This document shows positions 1,566 to 43,096 of a stretch of DNA of 43,096 bases, one piece after another; the first letter of the stretch is position 1; every line of letters begins with the position of its first letter. Source of the DNA: a virus. A program made the position numbers and the translations under genes. The notes beneath the pieces were generated by a model that saw only the letters and a list, made by a program, of their open reading frames with translations, ran no database searches and had not been told where the DNA came from. The DNA is taken from the IMG/VR virus record IMGVR_UViG_3300020000_000033, positions 1 through 43,096 of that record; one strand, given 5' to 3'.

Positions 1566-1592
1566 CGATTGCCCGTTGCCTGCCCAATAGTG

Positions 1593-1624
1593 GAAACGGC
1601 CGCTCTTGGGGGAGCGACCGTTTC
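1593..1624 (+). terminator. Hairpin before the primase-helicase gene
   Basis: GAAACGGCCGCT (1593-1604) pairs with AGCGACCGTTTC (1613-1624), 11 of 12 positions, with an 8-base loop. No T-run follows, so it is not a classical intrinsic terminator. It may be an attenuator, an mRNA-processing site or a weak terminator 28 bases before the ATG at 1653. Confidence 0.45.
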
Positions 1625-1652
1625 AACATGCCTAAAGCGAAGGATTCCAGAC

Positions 1653-3800
1653 ATGTCGGACAGCACACAATCTAGCGCCTCGCCCGAAAACTTCAAGATT
1701 CGTTACCCTGACCATGCGTCACCCGACGCCAATACGGCGGTGCGTTTCCTGGTCGAGATCGCCAATCGTGGACCGATGACCGTGGTCGGCATGCCGGTCG
1801 GCGGCGCCAGCCCGCGCGCACGCACCTTCGATACCGCCGACCCCGACGCTGTCAGGGACATGCGATCGTTCATCGCCTTCCAGGAAACCCAGCCGCACAA
1901 CGTCTTCTATGTGGCCAATGACGCCACCCTGAAGTGCCTTCATGTACCGTCGACCGAAGACATCGCATTCATTCGCTCGATCGTGCTCGACTTCGACCCC
2001 GACAAGCTGAAACCGCTCGAGGCCGAACGCGAGCGACTACGCTTAGTCGCACATGACCTGATCCATGGTCCGTTGCAGCCACGCGCCATCGTCGACACCG
2101 GCGGTGGCATGCAGGCGGTATTCCAGCTGCTGGAACCCATTCCAGCCACGCCGGTGACCATTGCCGAGACCGAGCTCCTCATGAAGGCGCTCGCCCGCTC
2201 GCTGGGCGCCGATACCGCCACCTGCAAGGCCAAGAACCTGTTTCGCGTTCCCGGCACCAAGAATTGGCCGACACCAGCCAAGAAGGCCGTAGGGCGCGAA
2301 GTCAGCGTCAGTGGCCTGTGGCACCACGGCGGGCCGCGCTGCACGCTGACGGAACTGCGCGCGCTGACCACGGTACATGTGGAGGATGAGCGCCCATCGG
2401 CGCCGGTGGAGTTCGGCGACCTCAGCGAGCATGACGTCACCGCGGTGCTGGGAGAACCGTCAGCACTGCCTGGCAGCCTGCTCGACCTGCTGCGCGATCC
2501 GATCCTGCAGAAGGCGGTGCTGCGGCCGCCACCGCCCGAGGACACTTCGGGCGGTGACTTCTACCTCGCCTGCAGCCTGACGCGCTGCAGGCTGCCTCCC
2601 CGTGACGCAGCGCTGGTGCTGTCAGCCTATGGCCACAAGGTGCAGGTAGCGTTTCAGCAGGAACGACTATTCTCGTATGTGGTGCAGACCATCGAAAAGG
2701 CCGTCGCCAAGGTCCGCATCGAGGACCTGCTGACCGACTTCGAGGACGAGGCTGAGCATGTCGATGCCGAAGAGCGCAAGCGCGAACACCGTTCGAGGCT
2801 GAAACCGATCGGCGTCACCGAAGCGCTCGAAGGCCTGTTCGATGCCGAGCACCAAAGCCTGATTCAAGGCTTCATGCGCTGCGGCGAATTGGTCGTCATC
2901 TACGGCCGCCCCGGGTCGGGAAAGACCTTCGTCGCCTCCGACATGGCCTACCATGTGGCGCTCGGTCTCGACTGGAACGAACGGCCGGTGAAGCCTATGG
3001 CGGTGGTCTATATCGCGACGGAATCGCCGCTCGGCATACGCTATCGGCTAAAAGCTTTAGCAGACCGCTACGGCGTCGCCGATCAGTTCTTCCTGGTCAG
3101 CACCACCGTCAACATGTTTGATCCCCGGGTTGACCTGCAGCCGTTGATGAAGGAGATCACCGCGCTCGGCGTCGACATCGGCATGATCGTCATCGATACG
3201 CTCGCCAGGAGCATGGTCGGCGGCAACGAGAACAGCACCCAGGACATGTCGCGGCTGATCGCCAATGGCGACATCCTGCGCGACAAGTACGGCGCCGTGG
3301 TGGTGTGGGTCCACCATACCGGCAAGAACGAGGCGGCCGGGGCGAGGGGCTCCTCGGCTCTGGTCGCCGCGACAGATACCGAGATCGAGATCAGCGATTA
3401 CACGTTCAGGTCGACCAAGATGCGCGACCGCGACGACGTCGACTACAGGTTCGCCCTGAAGCAGGTGCCGGTGGGCACGATGCCAGACGGAGAAGCAGTT
3501 ACTTCCTGCATCGTCAACTGGATCAAGGGCGCCGGCGAGTTCGGCCAGAACACGCCCGAGAGCAACAACATGGCTGTGGTTGTGACGCTGCTGCGGCTGC
3601 GCGGCGAGATGATGACTCTCAAGGAGATCCTGGCCGAAGCCGAACTCACCGGCCGCAAATTCACGGTGCGGCAGAACAGCTTGTCACGAGCGTTGAACCG
3701 CGCCTGCGAGAGCGAGACTAATAACGTCTTCACCAGGGAACTAACTGATGAAAAATCTGGTGCCAATAAGCTTTATCGCTATGGACTCGTTAACTGGTAA
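1653..3800 (+). CDS. Fused AEP primase and RepA-like replicative helicase
   Basis: This 715-aa protein combines two replication activities. Residues 105-210 show archaeo-eukaryotic primase features: VLDFD (metal-binding D113, D115), TGGGMQ (149-154, Gln where many AEP enzymes have His) and RVPGTKNWP (198-206). Residues 410-580 form a RecA/AAA_25 RepA-like helicase: Walker A GRPGSGKT (418-425), Walker B MIVID (511-515), HHTGK (554-558) and ARGSSAL. The C-terminus (about 640-715) looks like a winged helix. It should prime DNA synthesis and unwind the phage genome. ATG at 1653 follows AAGGA; an upstream in-frame extension lacks a good start. The primase/helicase pair recalls plasmid RSF1010 RepB'/RepA, here in one chain. 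Confidence 0.85.
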   Translation: MSDSTQSSASPENFKIRYPDHASPDANTAVRFLVEIANRGPMTVVGMPVGGASPRARTFDTADPDAVRDMRSFIAFQETQPHNVFYVANDATLKCLHVPSTEDIAFIRSIVLDFDPDKLKPLEAERERLRLVAHDLIHGPLQPRAIVDTGGGMQAVFQLLEPIPATPVTIAETELLMKALARSLGADTATCKAKNLFRVPGTKNWPTPAKKAVGREVSVSGLWHHGGPRCTLTELRALTTVHVEDERPSAPVEFGDLSEHDVTAVLGEPSALPGSLLDLLRDPILQKAVLRPPPPEDTSGGDFYLACSLTRCRLPPRDAALVLSAYGHKVQVAFQQERLFSYVVQTIEKAVAKVRIEDLLTDFEDEAEHVDAEERKREHRSRLKPIGVTEALEGLFDAEHQSLIQGFMRCGELVVIYGRPGSGKTFVASDMAYHVALGLDWNERPVKPMAVVYIATESPLGIRYRLKALADRYGVADQFFLVSTTVNMFDPRVDLQPLMKEITALGVDIGMIVIDTLARSMVGGNENSTQDMSRLIANGDILRDKYGAVVVWVHHTGKNEAAGARGSSALVAATDTEIEISDYTFRSTKMRDRDDVDYRFALKQVPVGTMPDGEAVTSCIVNWIKGAGEFGQNTPESNNMAVVVTLLRLRGEMMTLKEILAEAELTGRKFTVRQNSLSRALNRACESETNNVFTRELTDEKSGANKLYRYGLVNW

Positions 3801-31994: not shown

Positions 31995-34900
31995 TCACAG
32001 CCCCCTCGCAGAGCGGTAAGTGTTGATCGCAGCGTAGAGCGTAGCCGCCTCGCCAGACGTCAATCCGCCACCGAAGTGCATGATGCTCTGCGTTTGGGCG
32101 GCCGACGCGGTCGAGCTGGAGTCGGCGAGGAAATACATGTTGCCGCTGAACGGAGCAGAGCTGACCGTCGCTCCGGTATGAATGCTTGACCCATTCTTGT
32201 AGATAGCCACGGCATTTGACGCCGTGCGAGAAGCCAGATTGTGGCCACGGCCATCCGAGATCGTGCCAGCGACCGATACGGTGGACCCGTTGTTAAGACG
32301 GAAAGCGAACTGGTCGGAACTGTTTCTGGCGTTGATGCGGGCATTGGTATTGCCGGCAGCATTGGAGCCGCTTTGCTGATTGGTCTCCATCCACAGGCCG
32401 ATATGGGCGCTGTTCTGCAAGAACGACGTGGTAGTGTCGGTGCCGGGGTTGAACTGCGTGTTGAGAAAGGTGTTGAGCGCCCCTGCTGACGTGGCCCCGA
32501 TGGGGGCCGCCGTGCGGAACGTCACGCCGCCATTGACCAGCAGATTGTGGTGGTTGCCAATGAAGTTGAGGCAGCCGTCGGCGTCGTTGCCATTCACCGT
32601 CTTCAACGAGGTATCATAGAAGCCGACGAACTTGGCGAGACCGATGCCCTTGAGCGCGATCATCAAATTGTTGATCGCGGCCTGGTCCGGGCCACCTGGC
32701 GTCGCCGACATGCGGGCGATCAGCGCCGTCGTCTCGGACTCCAACGTGACGCTGGAGACCGTGAAGGCCCATGCGCTGGTGCCGGTGAGACCGGCGAACG
32801 GCATGCCGTCGACATCGACGAACGCCGTAGCGTCTACCTCGACGTAGTAACCAGCCCCGGCGATCATGTCCGCAGTCGGGTTCATCGTCACCGTCTTGGC
32901 AGATATTGCTGCCGTGGTTCCGGGCGTGAACGTCTGCACCGTGCTGTTGTCGCTGGTCTTCTTCAGCCTGACCGTGCCACCGCTGCCGGGGAACACGTTC
33001 TCAGAGAACGTCAGCACGAGGTTGTCACTGGGTAGCGCCGACGTCGAGCCGCTGGCCGGCGACTTCGAGACCGGCGTCGGTGCCGTCATCGCCGTGGTGA
33101 CGGCGAACAGCGCCGAGGTGTTGCCGATATACAGTTGCCCATTGACGACGGCACTGGAGGTGCCGGAAGCCTGCGCCAGTTCGTACTGCACGCGCTGCCC
33201 CGGGTTGATCGTGCTGGCAGCATTGGTGAACGGCAGGACTACTGTGGTGCCATCGCTGGCGAAGATGCGGTAACGGTCACCGGCGGTGACGCGCGCCGCC
33301 GACAGTTTGATCGGCGTGCCATTGTCGATTCCGGTGATCGACGCTGTGATCGCGCTGAGCACGTCAAGCTGATTGGTATCGGCGTTGACGCCCGCCATCG
33401 ACCACGCCGCCGGCGTGAAGTCGGGGAATGGCGCGTTGATAGTGCCGGCCATCGGCAGGGTCTCGAAGTTCGCAGGCCACGTCACCGCACCGCCGCCGGC
33501 GCCGACACCGTATGCACCATAGATCGGGTTGGAGACAGCCGGCTTGCTGGTGCCTGCGTTCCACGGACGGTTGGTGAAGGTGGCGATGACGTTGCCTTCG
33601 GTCAGCCCCTTGAACGAGGTGCCGAAGAAGTTCTCCTCGTAGGAGCCGCATAGCGGGAACGAGCTCCCAAGGCCGCCGTCCTCCGCCGACTTGTCTCCGT
33701 CGTCCATCTGGTCGGTGTAGAGCGTATTGACGACGACGTGGTGGTCGTAGGGGCCACCGCCCGTGACTGCGGCTACGGTGGTGCTGCAATGGAAATTGTT
33801 GGTGTAGACGCCCCTGCTGTCGCCGTAGACGTTCCGGTCACGCGCCACGGTGATGTTAACGCCGGTCAGTCCCGCCGAGGCCGTGAAGATCAGCGCCGGC
33901 GGAGTGGATGTCGAGTAGATGCCAGGGTCGGTGATGATGACGCTGCCGTTGACGACGGAGCCACCGGCAACGGTGAACGTCCCGGCCGGCTGTTCCTGCA
34001 TCGAGGCGAGGGACTGGAAGCCCAGCGCGAAGGTGCCGTTGGCACCGCCGGAGCCGCCGCTGACGAAAGTGACGGTGCCAAGACCGACATAGGTCTGTGA
34101 TGAGATCGCGATGCCTGGATTGCTGCGGCGCGGCGTGATTGACCACGCCGTCGATGCGTAGGTCGCGCTGAGCAGCGGGGTGTCTGACGGCACCGTGGTG
34201 GTGATCGTCTTGGCGAAGTCGTCGACCGCCGCAATGTTGAAGACGTTGCGCGTTCCGACGCTGGTGGTTGTTCCCACCGTCAGGAAGAAACTTTCGTCGA
34301 GCGGCACCTGCGACAAATCAGGCGAACCATTGAGATGAATGATCTTGTTGTCGCCGCCGCCAACGCCGTCGCCGCTGTAGAAGCCGATGCCGGTCTTGGC
34401 GATGGCTGGATTGTTGAAGCTGGAGTTACGGTCGTAGGCGACCGTCACGTAGGCGATGCCGCTGGCCTCGTCGCAGTTGTCGACTAGCACGGCGAGACCG
34501 TCGGTGACGCCGGTGAACAGGCAGCCGATAATCTGGCTGTTCTTGAACTTGGTCTCCGGGTGGTAGCTGACGCGGTCCATCTTGGCGCATGAAGCGCTGT
34601 TGCGCAGCTTGCCGCCGAAGGTCACCAGCCCCTTGTAGAGGATGTTCTGGAAGTGCTGCCCTTCCACCCAGGCGCCATTGTACGAGTGCATCGAGGTGTG
34701 GTTCTGGACCGTCTCCTGCCCGTTGCCCCAGAACGGGCCGCTGAAGCACCACGACAGTTCGACATCGGAGCCGGTGAACGACGTCGCGCCGTTGCCCATG
34801 TCCATCATGCGGGTTTGCGTCAGCTTGTTGACGTTGCCCGACGGGATGTTGCTGCCGCGCATGGTGATGGCATTGATGTCGTGGACCCAGCACTCGTCGA

Positions 34901-36146
34901 CGAGGATGCCGGCGACGCAGGAGGTGCCGGCATAGCGGCCCATGGTCTGCGGCCAGCTGTTGGCGTAGCCGGTCTTGTGGATGGTGTCGGAGCGGAACTC
35001 GCAGCGCCACGCCGCGATGTTGGAATTGGTGATGCCGACGCCGGCACCCTGGAACTCCCAGCAGGCGATCTCGCTGTCGTCCACCGCTGGCGCGTTGGGT
35101 TTGGGCAGATAGAACCTGACGTTCTCGAAGCGCACCTTACTGGCGGCATTGAACAGGTTGCGGCCCTTGATGACGCCATTGCCGGTGCGGTGCGAATAAT
35201 TCGTCACTGCCGCCGGGAAGCGGTGGGATCGGACAGTGACGAGGCTGGCGTAGTTGACGACCCATGACGGTGCGGCATGCTCGCCGTCCCTGAGCAGGAT
35301 GGTCTTGCCGCCGGCCGAGGTGATGGCGGCGAACGGCCATGCGTCGCCAGGTGCCATCGAGTAGGCGTTGGCCGTGGCGGAGATGGTGACCTGAATGACA
35401 CCAAGCGCCGTCGTACAGGTCAGCGTGGCCGCTGCTGGCGCAGTCGAGCAGACAATGCGTCCACTCGCCACCGACCATCCAACACCGCCGGTCACCGCTG
35501 TGATGTTGACCTCGTTGCCGTCGTTGTCGATGGCCTTGGCGCCCCCCGTGCCAGCCGCCGTCAGCGCGCCAAATGCGATGGTCTGGTTGGCAATGCCGCC
35601 CGAGGATACGATTGTTCCTGTCGTTGGCAGCGAGGTGCTGGTTCCGACCGAGTTGGTAGCGGTCACGAGACAAGTGATTGTCTTGCCCAGATCGAGCGTG
35701 GTGAGCAGATAGGTGTCGCCGATCGCCGCCGGGATGTCGACGCCATTGCGCTTCCACTGCTTGGTGATCGTGGGGGTAGGATCGCCAGTGACGGTGCCGC
35801 TGGTGCAGGTCAGCGTCGAGCCTACGGTCTCTATGCCGGTGATGTCTGCCTCGACCGTGAAAGATGGAATGCTACTGACGCCGCCGCCACCATCGATATT
35901 CGGCACCGTCAGTGTCGCGTCGGTCTCTACCGGCGGCGTCGTCGATACGGCGCCGCTGCCGCCCCCTCCTGTCGGATACGGCTGCCACGCCTGCAATGTC
36001 ATCACCGACGCAAAGACGAAGTTGGGGTCGGCCGGAACGGCGGCATTGGCGCCGCCCACCGCGCCGGCCTTCTCTTCGGAGGTCTTCGGCAGGTAAGCGT
36101 CGGTGCTGTTGGCGTCAGCAGACGTCCGCATGTAATAGGTGACCAC
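31995..36146 (-). CDS. Giant tailspike/tail-fibre-like protein
   Basis: The 1383-aa protein begins with TDAYLPKTSEEKAGAVGG (about 15-32) and QPYPTGGGG, shared with three neighbouring proteins. It has an Ig/PKD-like part (about 90-180: GIETVGSTLTCTSGTVTG), a long region of short strands with right-handed beta-helix character (about 270-760: RFENVRFYLP, ITNSNIAAWRCEF, ILVDECWVHDINA, FKNSQIIGCLF), an SbsA/Big_5-like Ig domain (PTPVSKSPASGSTSALPSDN, VLTFSENVFPG), and a C-terminal beta-rich domain (about 1180-1383). Beta-helix spikes often bind or cut host polysaccharides. GTG start at 36146 follows GGAGA. It is placed in the head cluster next to portal, which is unusual for a spike. Confidence 0.7.
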   Translation of the reverse strand: MVTYYMRTSADANSTDAYLPKTSEEKAGAVGGANAAVPADPNFVFASVMTLQAWQPYPTGGGGSGAVSTTPPVETDATLTVPNIDGGGGVSSIPSFTVEADITGIETVGSTLTCTSGTVTGDPTPTITKQWKRNGVDIPAAIGDTYLLTTLDLGKTITCLVTATNSVGTSTSLPTTGTIVSSGGIANQTIAFGALTAAGTGGAKAIDNDGNEVNITAVTGGVGWSVASGRIVCSTAPAAATLTCTTALGVIQVTISATANAYSMAPGDAWPFAAITSAGGKTILLRDGEHAAPSWVVNYASLVTVRSHRFPAAVTNYSHRTGNGVIKGRNLFNAASKVRFENVRFYLPKPNAPAVDDSEIACWEFQGAGVGITNSNIAAWRCEFRSDTIHKTGYANSWPQTMGRYAGTSCVAGILVDECWVHDINAITMRGSNIPSGNVNKLTQTRMMDMGNGATSFTGSDVELSWCFSGPFWGNGQETVQNHTSMHSYNGAWVEGQHFQNILYKGLVTFGGKLRNSASCAKMDRVSYHPETKFKNSQIIGCLFTGVTDGLAVLVDNCDEASGIAYVTVAYDRNSSFNNPAIAKTGIGFYSGDGVGGGDNKIIHLNGSPDLSQVPLDESFFLTVGTTTSVGTRNVFNIAAVDDFAKTITTTVPSDTPLLSATYASTAWSITPRRSNPGIAISSQTYVGLGTVTFVSGGSGGANGTFALGFQSLASMQEQPAGTFTVAGGSVVNGSVIITDPGIYSTSTPPALIFTASAGLTGVNITVARDRNVYGDSRGVYTNNFHCSTTVAAVTGGGPYDHHVVVNTLYTDQMDDGDKSAEDGGLGSSFPLCGSYEENFFGTSFKGLTEGNVIATFTNRPWNAGTSKPAVSNPIYGAYGVGAGGGAVTWPANFETLPMAGTINAPFPDFTPAAWSMAGVNADTNQLDVLSAITASITGIDNGTPIKLSAARVTAGDRYRIFASDGTTVVLPFTNAASTINPGQRVQYELAQASGTSSAVVNGQLYIGNTSALFAVTTAMTAPTPVSKSPASGSTSALPSDNLVLTFSENVFPGSGGTVRLKKTSDNSTVQTFTPGTTAAISAKTVTMNPTADMIAGAGYYVEVDATAFVDVDGMPFAGLTGTSAWAFTVSSVTLESETTALIARMSATPGGPDQAAINNLMIALKGIGLAKFVGFYDTSLKTVNGNDADGCLNFIGNHHNLLVNGGVTFRTAAPIGATSAGALNTFLNTQFNPGTDTTTSFLQNSAHIGLWMETNQQSGSNAAGNTNARINARNSSDQFAFRLNNGSTVSVAGTISDGRGHNLASRTASNAVAIYKNGSSIHTGATVSSAPFSGNMYFLADSSSTASAAQTQSIMHFGGGLTSGEAATLYAAINTYRSARGL

Positions 36147-41704: not shown

Positions 41705-41968
41705 ATGGCAAGACGCTACATAGCAGGCTCCCTTACAGGGAGTGACTTCAGACACATCCGGCTGGGCCTGCTGATGACGCAGCGGGAACTCGCCCGCGCG
41801 CTCGGCTACCGGCACAAGGTCCGCATCTCGGAGTTCGAGCGTGAAACCAATCCGGTGCCGATCCCGATTCCAATACAGGAAGAGATGATCCGGCTCTACG
41901 AGAGCGGCGGCACCGGCACACCTGGGGCCACAGCAGCACGGCCGTGGGTTCGGAAGGACGCTGCATGA
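41705..41968 (+). CDS. XRE-type helix-turn-helix regulator
   Basis: The 87-aa protein has an XRE HTH core: IRLGLLMTQRELARALGYRH then KVRISEFERETNPVP (about residues 18-52), with the second helix at LMTQRELARAL and recognition helix at HKVRISEFER. It should bind DNA as a dimer. It is the only classical regulator seen in the genome and sits next to the divergent promoter gap with its GTAACGGATAAG motif, so it is the natural candidate to bind that motif. The C-terminus is short and disordered. Confidence 0.75.
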   Translation: MARRYIAGSLTGSDFRHIRLGLLMTQRELARALGYRHKVRISEFERETNPVPIPIPIQEEMIRLYESGGTGTPGATAARPWVRKDAA

Positions 41969-42156
41969 GCACGGCCATCGCCTCGATCGACTACGACGAG
42001 TACGAGGAGATACTGACCGTCCGCTTCACTGACGGCAGCGTCTACACGTACTGGAATGTGCCGCAGGAGGTGTATGGCGAGTTCCTGTATGCCAGCTCCG
42101 CGGGGACTTATTTCAATGCCAATATCCGGGACAATTACAATTACCGGCGGAAGTGA
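41965..42156 (+). CDS. KTSC domain protein
   Basis: The 63-aa protein matches the KTSC domain: AIASIDYDEYEEILTVRFTD, GSVYTYWNVPQEVYGEFLYA and SSAGTYFNANIRDNY. These short domains are widespread in phages and bacteria; they are sometimes fused to nucleic-acid enzymes, but their biochemical role is not established. ATG at 41965 overlaps the regulator's stop as ATGA. It is the last gene before the repeat-rich non-coding region. Confidence 0.85.
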   Translation: MSTAIASIDYDEYEEILTVRFTDGSVYTYWNVPQEVYGEFLYASSAGTYFNANIRDNYNYRRK

Positions 42157-42164
42157 GCCTTGTT

Positions 42165-42176
42165 AGGTAACGGATG
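42165..42176 (+). promoter_or_regulatory. GGTAACGGATG motif, site 6
   Basis: AGGTAACGGATG lies nine bases after the KTSC stop. It opens the non-coding region and matches the family at TAACGGAT. Confidence 0.5.
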
Positions 42177-42202
42177 TTTGAGTTTCTCAAGTTGCGCGAA
42201 GT

Positions 42203-42236
42203 CCGGGGGGGGCCCGCGCGTCTGTACACCCCCCGG
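42203..42236. other. CCGGGGGG / CCCCCCGG inverted repeat
   Basis: CCGGGGGG (42203-42210) and CCCCCCGG (42229-42236) form a perfect 8-bp stem around an 18-base loop. CCCCGGTTG is repeated at 42231 and 42252. It could end transcription from the KTSC operon, though no T-run follows. Confidence 0.45.
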
Positions 42237-42263
42237 TTGCGACGACCCCCACCCCGGTTGTGC

Positions 42264-42350
42264 CAGTATACTTCAACTATAGTTCATGTATTGATGTAGT
42301 ATAGTTCTTCAACTATACTTACGTATACTATTGACATACTGTATAGATCG
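42264..42350. other. AT-rich tract with palindromes
   Basis: This tract is strikingly AT-rich for the genome. AGTATAGTT (42298-42306) and AACTATACT (42311-42319) are a perfect inverted repeat around CTTC; AACTATAGTT (42274-42283) is a 10-bp palindrome; CTTCAACTATA occurs twice. It would melt easily, as a DNA-unwinding element, or contain operators. A TTGACA at 42331 lacks a good -10. Confidence 0.55.
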
Positions 42351-42357
42351 TTGCAAA

Positions 42358-42370
42358 GTAACGGATAAGT
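42358..42370 (+). promoter_or_regulatory. GTAACGGATAAGT motif, site 7
   Basis: The 13-mer GTAACGGATAAGT is identical to site 8 at 42928-42940. It stands between the AT-rich tract and the GC repeats. Confidence 0.55.
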
Positions 42371-42412
42371 ATTGAGCAAGTATTGATTTGGAACGGCATG
42401 CCTGGCGGCAGC

Positions 42413-42551
42413 GTCCGACCTCGAGGTCGAGCAGCGTCCGACCTCGAGTCCGACCTCGAGTCCGACCTCGAGTCCGACCTCGAGTCCGACCTCGAGGTCG
42501 AGCAGCGTCCGACCTCGAGGTCGAGCAGCGTCCGACCTCTAGGTCGAGCAG
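42413..42551. repeat. 12-bp and 23-bp GC-rich tandem repeats
   Basis: GTCCGACCTCGAG begins at 42413, 42436, 42448, 42460, 42472, 42484, 42507 and 42530 (last copy CTCTAG). Spacing is 23, 12, 12, 12, 12, 23, 23. The longer unit adds GTCGAGCAGC and creates the palindrome CGACCTCGAGGTCG. Reading frames across it encode only simple Arg/Ser/Glu/Leu repeats and are not considered genes. Iterons, a packaging signal or a variable minisatellite are possible. Confidence 0.85.
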
Positions 42552-42660
42552 CATGCGGCGCCACAAGCAAACCCGCTACAGCTGCTCGAGCTCGAGCCGC
42601 ACTGTGGGGAGCGGAACATGGGGCAAGCGGCATTGGGGCGCCTGATAGGCACCGGCCGTA

Positions 42661-42689
42661 GGGTTTTAATTTTTAGGGTTTGGGTAGGG
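42661..42689 (+). other. Four GGG tracts, possible G-quadruplex
   Basis: GGG at 42661, 42676, 42682 and 42687 with loops of 12, 3 and 2 bases could fold as a quadruplex on the plus strand. The long first loop weakens it. No other function seen. Confidence 0.3.
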
Positions 42690-42725
42690 AATCAGGCGGA
42701 CACGGAAGGTGGCGCCTGTCGGACA

Positions 42726-42744
42726 TTGTGTCCCATAGACACAA
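42726..42744. other. TTGTGTC / GACACAA inverted repeat
   Basis: A perfect 7-bp inverted repeat with a 5-base loop (CCATA) lies just before the GTCCGTCAT repeats. It is followed by AAATTT. Possible operator or weak terminator. Confidence 0.4.
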
Positions 42745-42750
42745 AAATTT

Positions 42751-42907
42751 GTCCGTCATTTTGGTCTTGCCGTCCGTCATTGTCCGTCATTTGTCCGTCA
42801 TTGTTGATTTCATTGGGAAAAATGACGGACAAATGACGGACAAGGCCCAAAAAATGACGGACAAAATGACGGACAAGGCATAAAAATAAGACCTGTTTGT
42901 CCGTCAT
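42751..42907. repeat. Nine copies of GTCCGTCAT/ATGACGGAC
   Basis: Reverse copies start at 42751, 42772, 42782, 42793 and 42899; forward copies at 42822, 42833, 42854 and 42866. Pairs are spaced 10-12 bases, about one helical turn, an arrangement typical of iterons bound by an initiator. A frame through them reads repeated Met-Thr-Asp-Lys and is not considered a gene. Confidence 0.85.
42780..42843. repeat. Hairpin A: 23-bp perfect inverted repeat
   Basis: Positions 42780-42802 and 42821-42843 are perfect reverse complements with an 18-base loop. Its right arm shares 42821-42833 with hairpin B, so the two structures exclude each other. Confidence 0.85.
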
Positions 42908-42925
42908 TTTTCCCAATGAAATCAA
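42804..42925. repeat. Hairpin B: 30-bp perfect inverted repeat
   Basis: Positions 42804-42833 and 42896-42925 are perfect reverse complements with a 62-base loop that contains two further ATGACGGAC copies. Such a long perfect dyad in a compact phage genome is unlikely by chance. Confidence 0.9.
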
Positions 42926-42927
42926 TG

Positions 42928-42940
42928 GTAACGGATAAGT
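42928..42940 (+). promoter_or_regulatory. GTAACGGATAAGT motif, site 8
   Basis: It begins two bases after the end of hairpin B and is identical to site 7. It lies 54 bases before the site-1 copy at 42981-42993. Confidence 0.55.
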
Positions 42941-42952
42941 TGCATAATTAAT

Positions 42953-43096
42953 TGAAAATACATCCTCAGGTTGGTTGTGCGATAACGGATATCATGCGAT
43001 AAAGCGACATCGAAACGCAAATGACAGGGAATTAACAATGTCATATGACCGTGATATGCCGCTCATGAGAGCTCACGCACTCGCCTCACCCGAAGG
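42953..43096. repeat. Terminal direct repeat, right copy
   Basis: Same 144 bases as 1-144 except T at 42971. It contains a second copy of motif site 1 (42981-42993) and the first 59 bases of the HhH-GPD gene (ATG at 43038), cut off by the window end. Confidence 0.95.

Follow-up and report, generated by a model that had tools for sequence, protein, structure and literature searches.

The non-coding region upstream of the rightward genes of the phage genome analyzed here carries a conserved element, composed of opposed short repeats and hairpins, which we infer to be probably the replication origin of the phage, or the core of this origin, of the iteron type. The layout of the element was kept among related viruses while the repeated word was changed, and similar repeat clusters were found beside the genes for related helicases in other phages and plasmids.

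The window, that is, the whole stretch of DNA analyzed, is a virus record of 43,096 bases and looks complete. Its ends overlap by 144 bp (1-144 corresponding to 42953-43096) with one mismatch (A at position 19 and T at 42971), pointing to a map that is circular or else terminally redundant with variation. The leftward genes comprised the structural genes and most of the replication genes, including those for terminase, portal, major head protein, tail fibres, DNA polymerase (PHROG 17), a Gp2.5-like single-strand binding protein, an exonuclease and a second helicase. A leftward reading frame of 1383 aa (31995-36146) had only weak matches to virion proteins (PHROG 26223 and 12736). The short rightward set included genes for an XRE-type regulator, a KTSC protein, a 197-aa protein (86-679) and a primase-helicase. 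Approximately 1 kb of non-coding DNA was located between the KTSC gene and the gene for the 197-aa protein, with the array near the right end (Table 1). A dispersed intergenic motif, GTAACGGAT, was seen at 31, 3798, 42168, 42359, 42929 and 42983 of the window, and also in related contigs as GTAACGCTTT (L007) or GTAACGGTT (L006, L013, L018 and L021); it may be bound as an operator by the conserved XRE protein.

Table 1. Positions of the element and of the genes discussed with it, numbered from the first base of the window
Feature	Position	Strand	Remark
Non-coding region	42157-43096	.	between XRE/KTSC genes and rightward early genes; runs on as 1-85 because the record ends overlap
Hairpin H1, CGGACA-TTGTGTC-CCATA-GACACAA-AAATT-TGTCCG	42720-42755	+	same form in 9 of 9 family members and in L090
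F unit 1, GTCCGTCAT	42751-42759	+	exact copy
F unit 2	42772-42780	+	exact copy
F unit 3	42782-42790	+	exact copy
F unit 4	42793-42801	+	exact copy
R unit 1, ATGACGGAC	42822-42830	-	exact copy
R unit 2	42833-42841	-	exact copy
R unit 3	42854-42862	-	exact copy
R unit 4	42866-42874	-	exact copy
F unit 5	42899-42907	+	exact copy
Hairpin A, left arm	42780-42802	+	23 bp, pairs with 42821-42843
Hairpin A, right arm	42821-42843	+	pairs with 42780-42802
Hairpin B, left arm	42804-42833	+	30 bp, pairs with 42896-42925
Hairpin B, right arm	42896-42925	+	pairs with 42804-42833
Core motif TTGATTTCATTG, left copy	42804-42815	+	unchanged in L006, L018 and L070; L013 with a single change
Core motif, inverted right copy, CAATGAAATCAA	42914-42925	-	sequence
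XRE-type regulator	41705-41968	+	conserved; synteny marker of the family
Primase-helicase	1569-3800	+	putative array reader; RepA-type (AAA_25) helicase domain, N-terminal part weakly RepB_primase-like, predicted helical C-terminal end

All nine exact copies of the unit were located within 42751-42907 and none elsewhere in the 43,096 bases. The spacings of 21, 10, 11, 29, 11, 21, 12 and 33 nt were close to whole helical turns, confirming what a previous sequence-only reading of this DNA had described. Its two hairpins, A and B, were likewise found to be perfect and to have part of an arm (42821-42833) in common. The most frequent 9-mer reached 4 copies in 500 dinucleotide-preserving shuffles against the nine observed, and the longest perfect stem was 10 bp at maximum in 100 such shuffles, compared with 30 bp in the window. 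The single-stranded DNA of 42715-42940 was predicted to fold with -63.4 kcal/mol (z = -9.8), a value equaled by none of 200 shuffles, and the local G+C content was 41% against 64% in the whole genome. The minimum-energy fold of the single strand contained hairpin A and not B. Pairing is possible between any F unit and any R unit, and the alternatives are hence not limited to A and B. A second tandem array, of 12- and 23-bp GTCCGACCTCGA-type repeats, was seen 200 bp upstream of the element (42405-42555); at the matching place in L006 (2394-2805) there were a CTCGAG run and ten different 23-bp repeats.

Relatives having the region were found via the primase-helicase, the 197-aa protein and the XRE protein, and the portal added one more. 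The array was present in the same non-coding region of eight related virus contigs, each with its own unit word, namely GTCGCGCAC in L006, TCCGCTCAA in L013, GTCGGGC in L018, GTGCTCTC in L021, GCGCCGCT in L048, TCCTTGTG in L051, GTCACGCT in L263 and AGGTCACA in L007; the units were near-identical inside one array and the words differed between phages. The element was syntenic with the rightward genes, including that for the primase-helicase, in nine contigs. Lack of conservation in related phages had been named as grounds against the sequence-only reading; the comparison revealed the element to be conserved. The order of F-block, spacer with the core, R-block and F was kept in all members except L007. 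Counted from the 5' end of H1, the units started at 32F, 53F, 63F, 74F, 103R, 114R, 135R, 147R and 180F in the window, and at 33F, 54F, 65F, 76F, 105R, 116R, 126R, 138R, 150R, 183F and 195F in L006, whose primase-helicase is 75% identical to that of the window. All nine oriented sites of the window were thus matched within 3 nt in L006 despite the different words, as were eight in L013, seven in L263 and five in L018, while random placement was expected to give approximately 1.2-1.7 matches (p from <1/20000 to 0.002 for these four contigs). The order, and not the absolute distances, was kept in L021 (3/9), L048 (0) and L051 (0).

Stems between F and R units were long in all members. Apart from the 30-bp stem in the window, their perfect lengths were 10-23 bp, and the units that paired in them varied among the members. 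The core-to-core hairpin B was clear in the window, L013, L018 and L021, whereas L006, L048 and L051 did not show it clearly; in L013 its extension carried a compensated change (TTGATATCATTG/CAATGATATCAA). In several relatives the best fold combined an A-like hairpin and a short B-like hairpin simultaneously. Since the paired units vary and core-to-core B is clear in some of the members only, the mutual exclusion of exactly these two hairpins is a property of the window genome and not of the family, and the idea of a switch between the two found no specific support.

The region gave no match at the DNA level in the named phage collection. When viral and genome contigs were searched with DNA patterns for the core plus GACAA/TTGTC and for H1, nearly all matches were due to chance, with no new close member, and neither a prophage nor a host was found by the core and H1 patterns. 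The core pattern detected a distant helicase phage (L070/L086) having a GGGACAAA array with an exact copy of the core. The core is not claimed to be an IHF site, as WATCAANNNNTTR fits L021, L048, L091, L267 and L299 by eye, and not the copies in the window. Bidirectional arrays of the GAGCCC type with the core AATGATATCAACCACTTAG were also seen in L267 (approximately 281-560) and L299 (approximately 241-560), contigs with related portals, in which they directly follow a coding region and lie outside the XRE/primase-helicase context.

A third hairpin of the element, H1, had been overlooked in the earlier reading. It is composed of an outer stem, an inner stem, a loop, the inner stem, a 5-nt bulge on the 3' side and the outer stem, and the first F unit begins with its 3' outer arm. 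With H1, the element starts earlier than had been described. Throughout the family the loop was small and the bulge, of 4-6 nt, was confined to the 3' side. Scanning for this shape gave a single occurrence in the window and detected it at the corresponding place in L006, L013, L018, L021, L007, L048, L051 and L263, as well as in L090, a Methylobacterium plasmid-phage, directly downstream of the helicase gene. When nine sequences were compared (the window, L090 and seven of the relatives), 2-4 Watson-Crick types and no broken pair were seen at each of the 13 pair positions. The shape was found in none of 400 shuffles of the region, a figure that serves as a guide and not as a strict probability because the shape parameters were set after the first examples had been seen; the recurrence of H1 at the same place is the stronger argument. 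The outer stem in L018 had its own compensated word, CTGACA/TGTCAG, unlike the array word of this contig. As this word is matched on both arms, the pairing is maintained separately from the copying or homogenization of units. The one-sided bulge and the varying loop are ill-suited to a dimer on duplex DNA and thus favor a folded single strand, either DNA or RNA. An intrinsic terminator or promoter was rejected as an explanation for H1, A and B, as the scan remained at the shuffle level and no T-run follows H1.

The array is located approximately 1.7 kb upstream of the primase-helicase start, counted across the joined ends. The DxD and RVPGTxNWP motifs of this protein are presumably those of archaeo-eukaryotic primases. 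The helicase domain was assigned to AAA_25 (PF13481, E = 1.9e-36), and its best match among solved structures was RSF1010 RepA (1g8y, E = 1.4e-8). The N-terminal part matched RepB_primase (PF16793) at a sub-threshold level (E = 0.14; 12.5 bits against a cut-off of 24.3). The AlphaFold model, with a mean pLDDT of 48, was too poor for a fold search, and its C-terminal helices were of low confidence. The C-terminal helix was RQNSLSRALNRA in the window and RQESLRTALNRA in L006; co-variation of this helix with the unit word was suggestive only (n = 5). Few members carried both the array and the full primase-helicase on one contig (window, L006, L007, L021 and L048).

Repeat clusters were also found beside such helicase genes elsewhere. 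By raw counts of a scan, a cluster of short repeats began at a distance of approximately 100 bp or less from the end of the gene in 7 of 14 named phages and plasmids with such a helicase (Roseobacter phages CRP-831 and CRP-406, Serratia phage Smarc2, and plasmids of Caenibius, Klebsiella, Methylobacterium and E. coli). An eighth was recognized by eye in Vibrio phage 1.076.O, and metagenomic L010 and L086 gave two further clusters adjoining helicase genes. The clusters beside distant helicase genes used other short words and were often located downstream of the gene. No array was found by scan or eye at the other 6 of the 14 loci (Jerseyvirus, Corynebacterium, Caulobacter and three others). In Smarc2 (L097, 5300-5375), a very G+C-rich hairpin, CTCTCCCCATCCCCC...GGGGGATGGGGGAGAG, was seen in a cluster of CCATCCC repeats just after the helicase gene.

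An array of operators or enhancers for early transcription, in which a regulator binds the duplex units and the hairpins are a by-product of opposed sites, is an unlikely explanation. The rightward genes do lie downstream of the array, there is an XRE gene close by, and helical spacing would suit any cooperative DNA-binding protein. However, the helix region of the XRE protein (RISEFER) was near-constant among phages with unrelated unit words, and this regulator was rejected as the reader of the words. The sole promoter-like match in 42100-43096 was more than 400 nt upstream of the array, and the number of such matches was at the shuffle level; the form of H1 and the frequent downstream position of the other helicase-adjoining arrays also argue against operators. 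It is quite improbable that the plus strand is transcribed into a leader or small RNA, possibly a switch, containing H1 and A/B. H1 has a strand polarity that agrees in direction with the downstream genes throughout the family, its pairs vary on both arms and every member had a strong RNA fold, but pair-preserving changes are equally compatible with single-stranded DNA, and helical-turn spacing and the swapping of words are unexpected for RNA. No Rfam family was matched at the gathering score, and the matches listed were miRNA models far below the threshold.

A partition, packaging or terminal signal is very improbable. The distance from the array to the repeated record end is 27 bp, but the array was internal to the contig in relatives, and hence the break is not tied to it; moreover, the terminase and portal genes are located beyond the regulator genes, and none of the scanned proteins was recognized as a partition protein. 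Functionless repeats, selfish or passively homogenized by recombination that spreads one word through the inverted array, would account for identity within arrays and differences between phages as in concerted evolution, but are hardly credible given the unit positions kept within 3 nt in several relatives and the separate H1 word of L018.

We return to the replication origin, the probable reading, which is supported by the position of the element upstream of the syntenic rightward genes including the primase-helicase, the layout kept while the word changes, the presence of H1 in nine family members and L090 with preserved pairs in the nine sequences compared, the repeat clusters adjoining such helicase genes elsewhere, and the match to RSF1010 RepA together with the precedents of SaPI/SCCmec and pRN1. 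Four roles had been proposed from the sequence alone: conservation, position and the link to a RepA-type primase-helicase favor the origin or single-strand initiation site among them, and not the packaging site or riboregulator. The 9-bp units would be iterons, i.e., double-stranded sites for the phage initiator, which is most likely the C-terminal domain of the primase-helicase, and the unit word of each phage lineage would be recognized by the initiator of that lineage. The opposed units around the core would set helicase rings facing both ways. The A+T-richer array would then open, and H1 and hairpins of the A/B type would form in the single strands and provide the primase part with places to land or to prime; we regard the chances as about even that the hairpins are used in this manner after opening. 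Several facts stand against an origin, namely the array is upstream of the gene, whereas in SaPIs, SCCmec and the distant phages it directly follows the gene, the G+C skew of the genome has no clear turning point, the primase match is sub-threshold and six helicase loci lack an array.

To our knowledge, the origins of most environmental phages are unknown. The combination of opposed short repeats beside a RepA-type primase-helicase and a one-sided bulged hairpin provides a signature that can be searched for in contigs, and the family represents a natural experiment in which the initiator and nine binding sites would shift specificity together in a fixed geometry. We tentatively raise the possibility of a class of phage origins with a fixed three-dimensional scaffold (F-block, core, R-block and F plus the bulged H1) in which the iteron word is replaced as a whole. 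The signal recognized by a PrimPol/RepA-type primase-helicase might be folded single-stranded hairpins built from the iterons, and the use of each other's origins by related phages might be barred by the private word.

Among known systems, the replication of the Sulfolobus plasmid pRN1 needs a stem-loop conserved in shape and not in sequence, and the authors suggested such a stem-loop also for phages (BIP-1) (PMC4234260). H1 similarly keeps its structure while the sequence varies (13 positions in nine sequences), and a replication protein joining primase, helicase and winged-helix domains is a feature of pRN1. In contrast, the pRN1 protein combines an AEP primase with an SF3 helicase and a winged helix, whereas an AAA_25/RepA helicase with a weak primase match was found here; the pRN1 stem-loop is directly downstream of the gene, unlike the element at 42720-42925, upstream of 1569; and the account of pRN1 describes no array of short units, while the stems here are built from iterons. 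Primases fused to RepA helicases and winged-helix domains have been described (PMC5862659).

The initiator helicases of SaPI and SCCmec read iterons with the C-terminal domain (PMC7581432). SaPI/PICI origins resemble the present family in having element-specific short iteron words in sets with conserved organization (PMC6092414). They differ in that the origins of SaPI/PICI and SCCmec lie immediately 3' of rep, whereas the array is upstream in the window family and directly downstream in the distant phages, and in that PICI origins flank an AT-rich region (PMC6092414). As far as the descriptions consulted extend, neither an inverted layout that forms hairpins nor a bulged hairpin of the H1 type is given for SaPI, PICI and SCCmec. 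In the V. cholerae PLE, iterons with inverted sub-repeats in a non-coding region also drive satellite replication, but the initiator is RepA_N and not a primase-helicase (PMC7145576).

The oriV of RSF1010 (IncQ) employs RepA, RepB' and RepC, with the hairpins ssiA and ssiB as single-strand initiation sites for the primase (PMC4434180, PMC4234260). Its RepA helicase is related to that of the phage, but its 20-bp direct iterons are read by the separate RepC, whereas the units here are of 9-11 bp in both orientations, and no RepC-like iteron binder was matched among the proteins scanned. The ssi of RSF1010 spans 40 nt and has its GTG start on the 3' side of a simple hairpin; no GTG directly follows the inner stem of H1, where the sequence is AAATTTGTCCG. 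The statement in the sequence-only reading that no element of this design had been described was too strong, given the closeness of the pRN1-type stem-loop and the PICI/SaPI iteron origins. As far as the cited descriptions extend, opposed short iterons and a bulged hairpin are combined in none of these origins, and the element is thus new in its combination and known in its kind.
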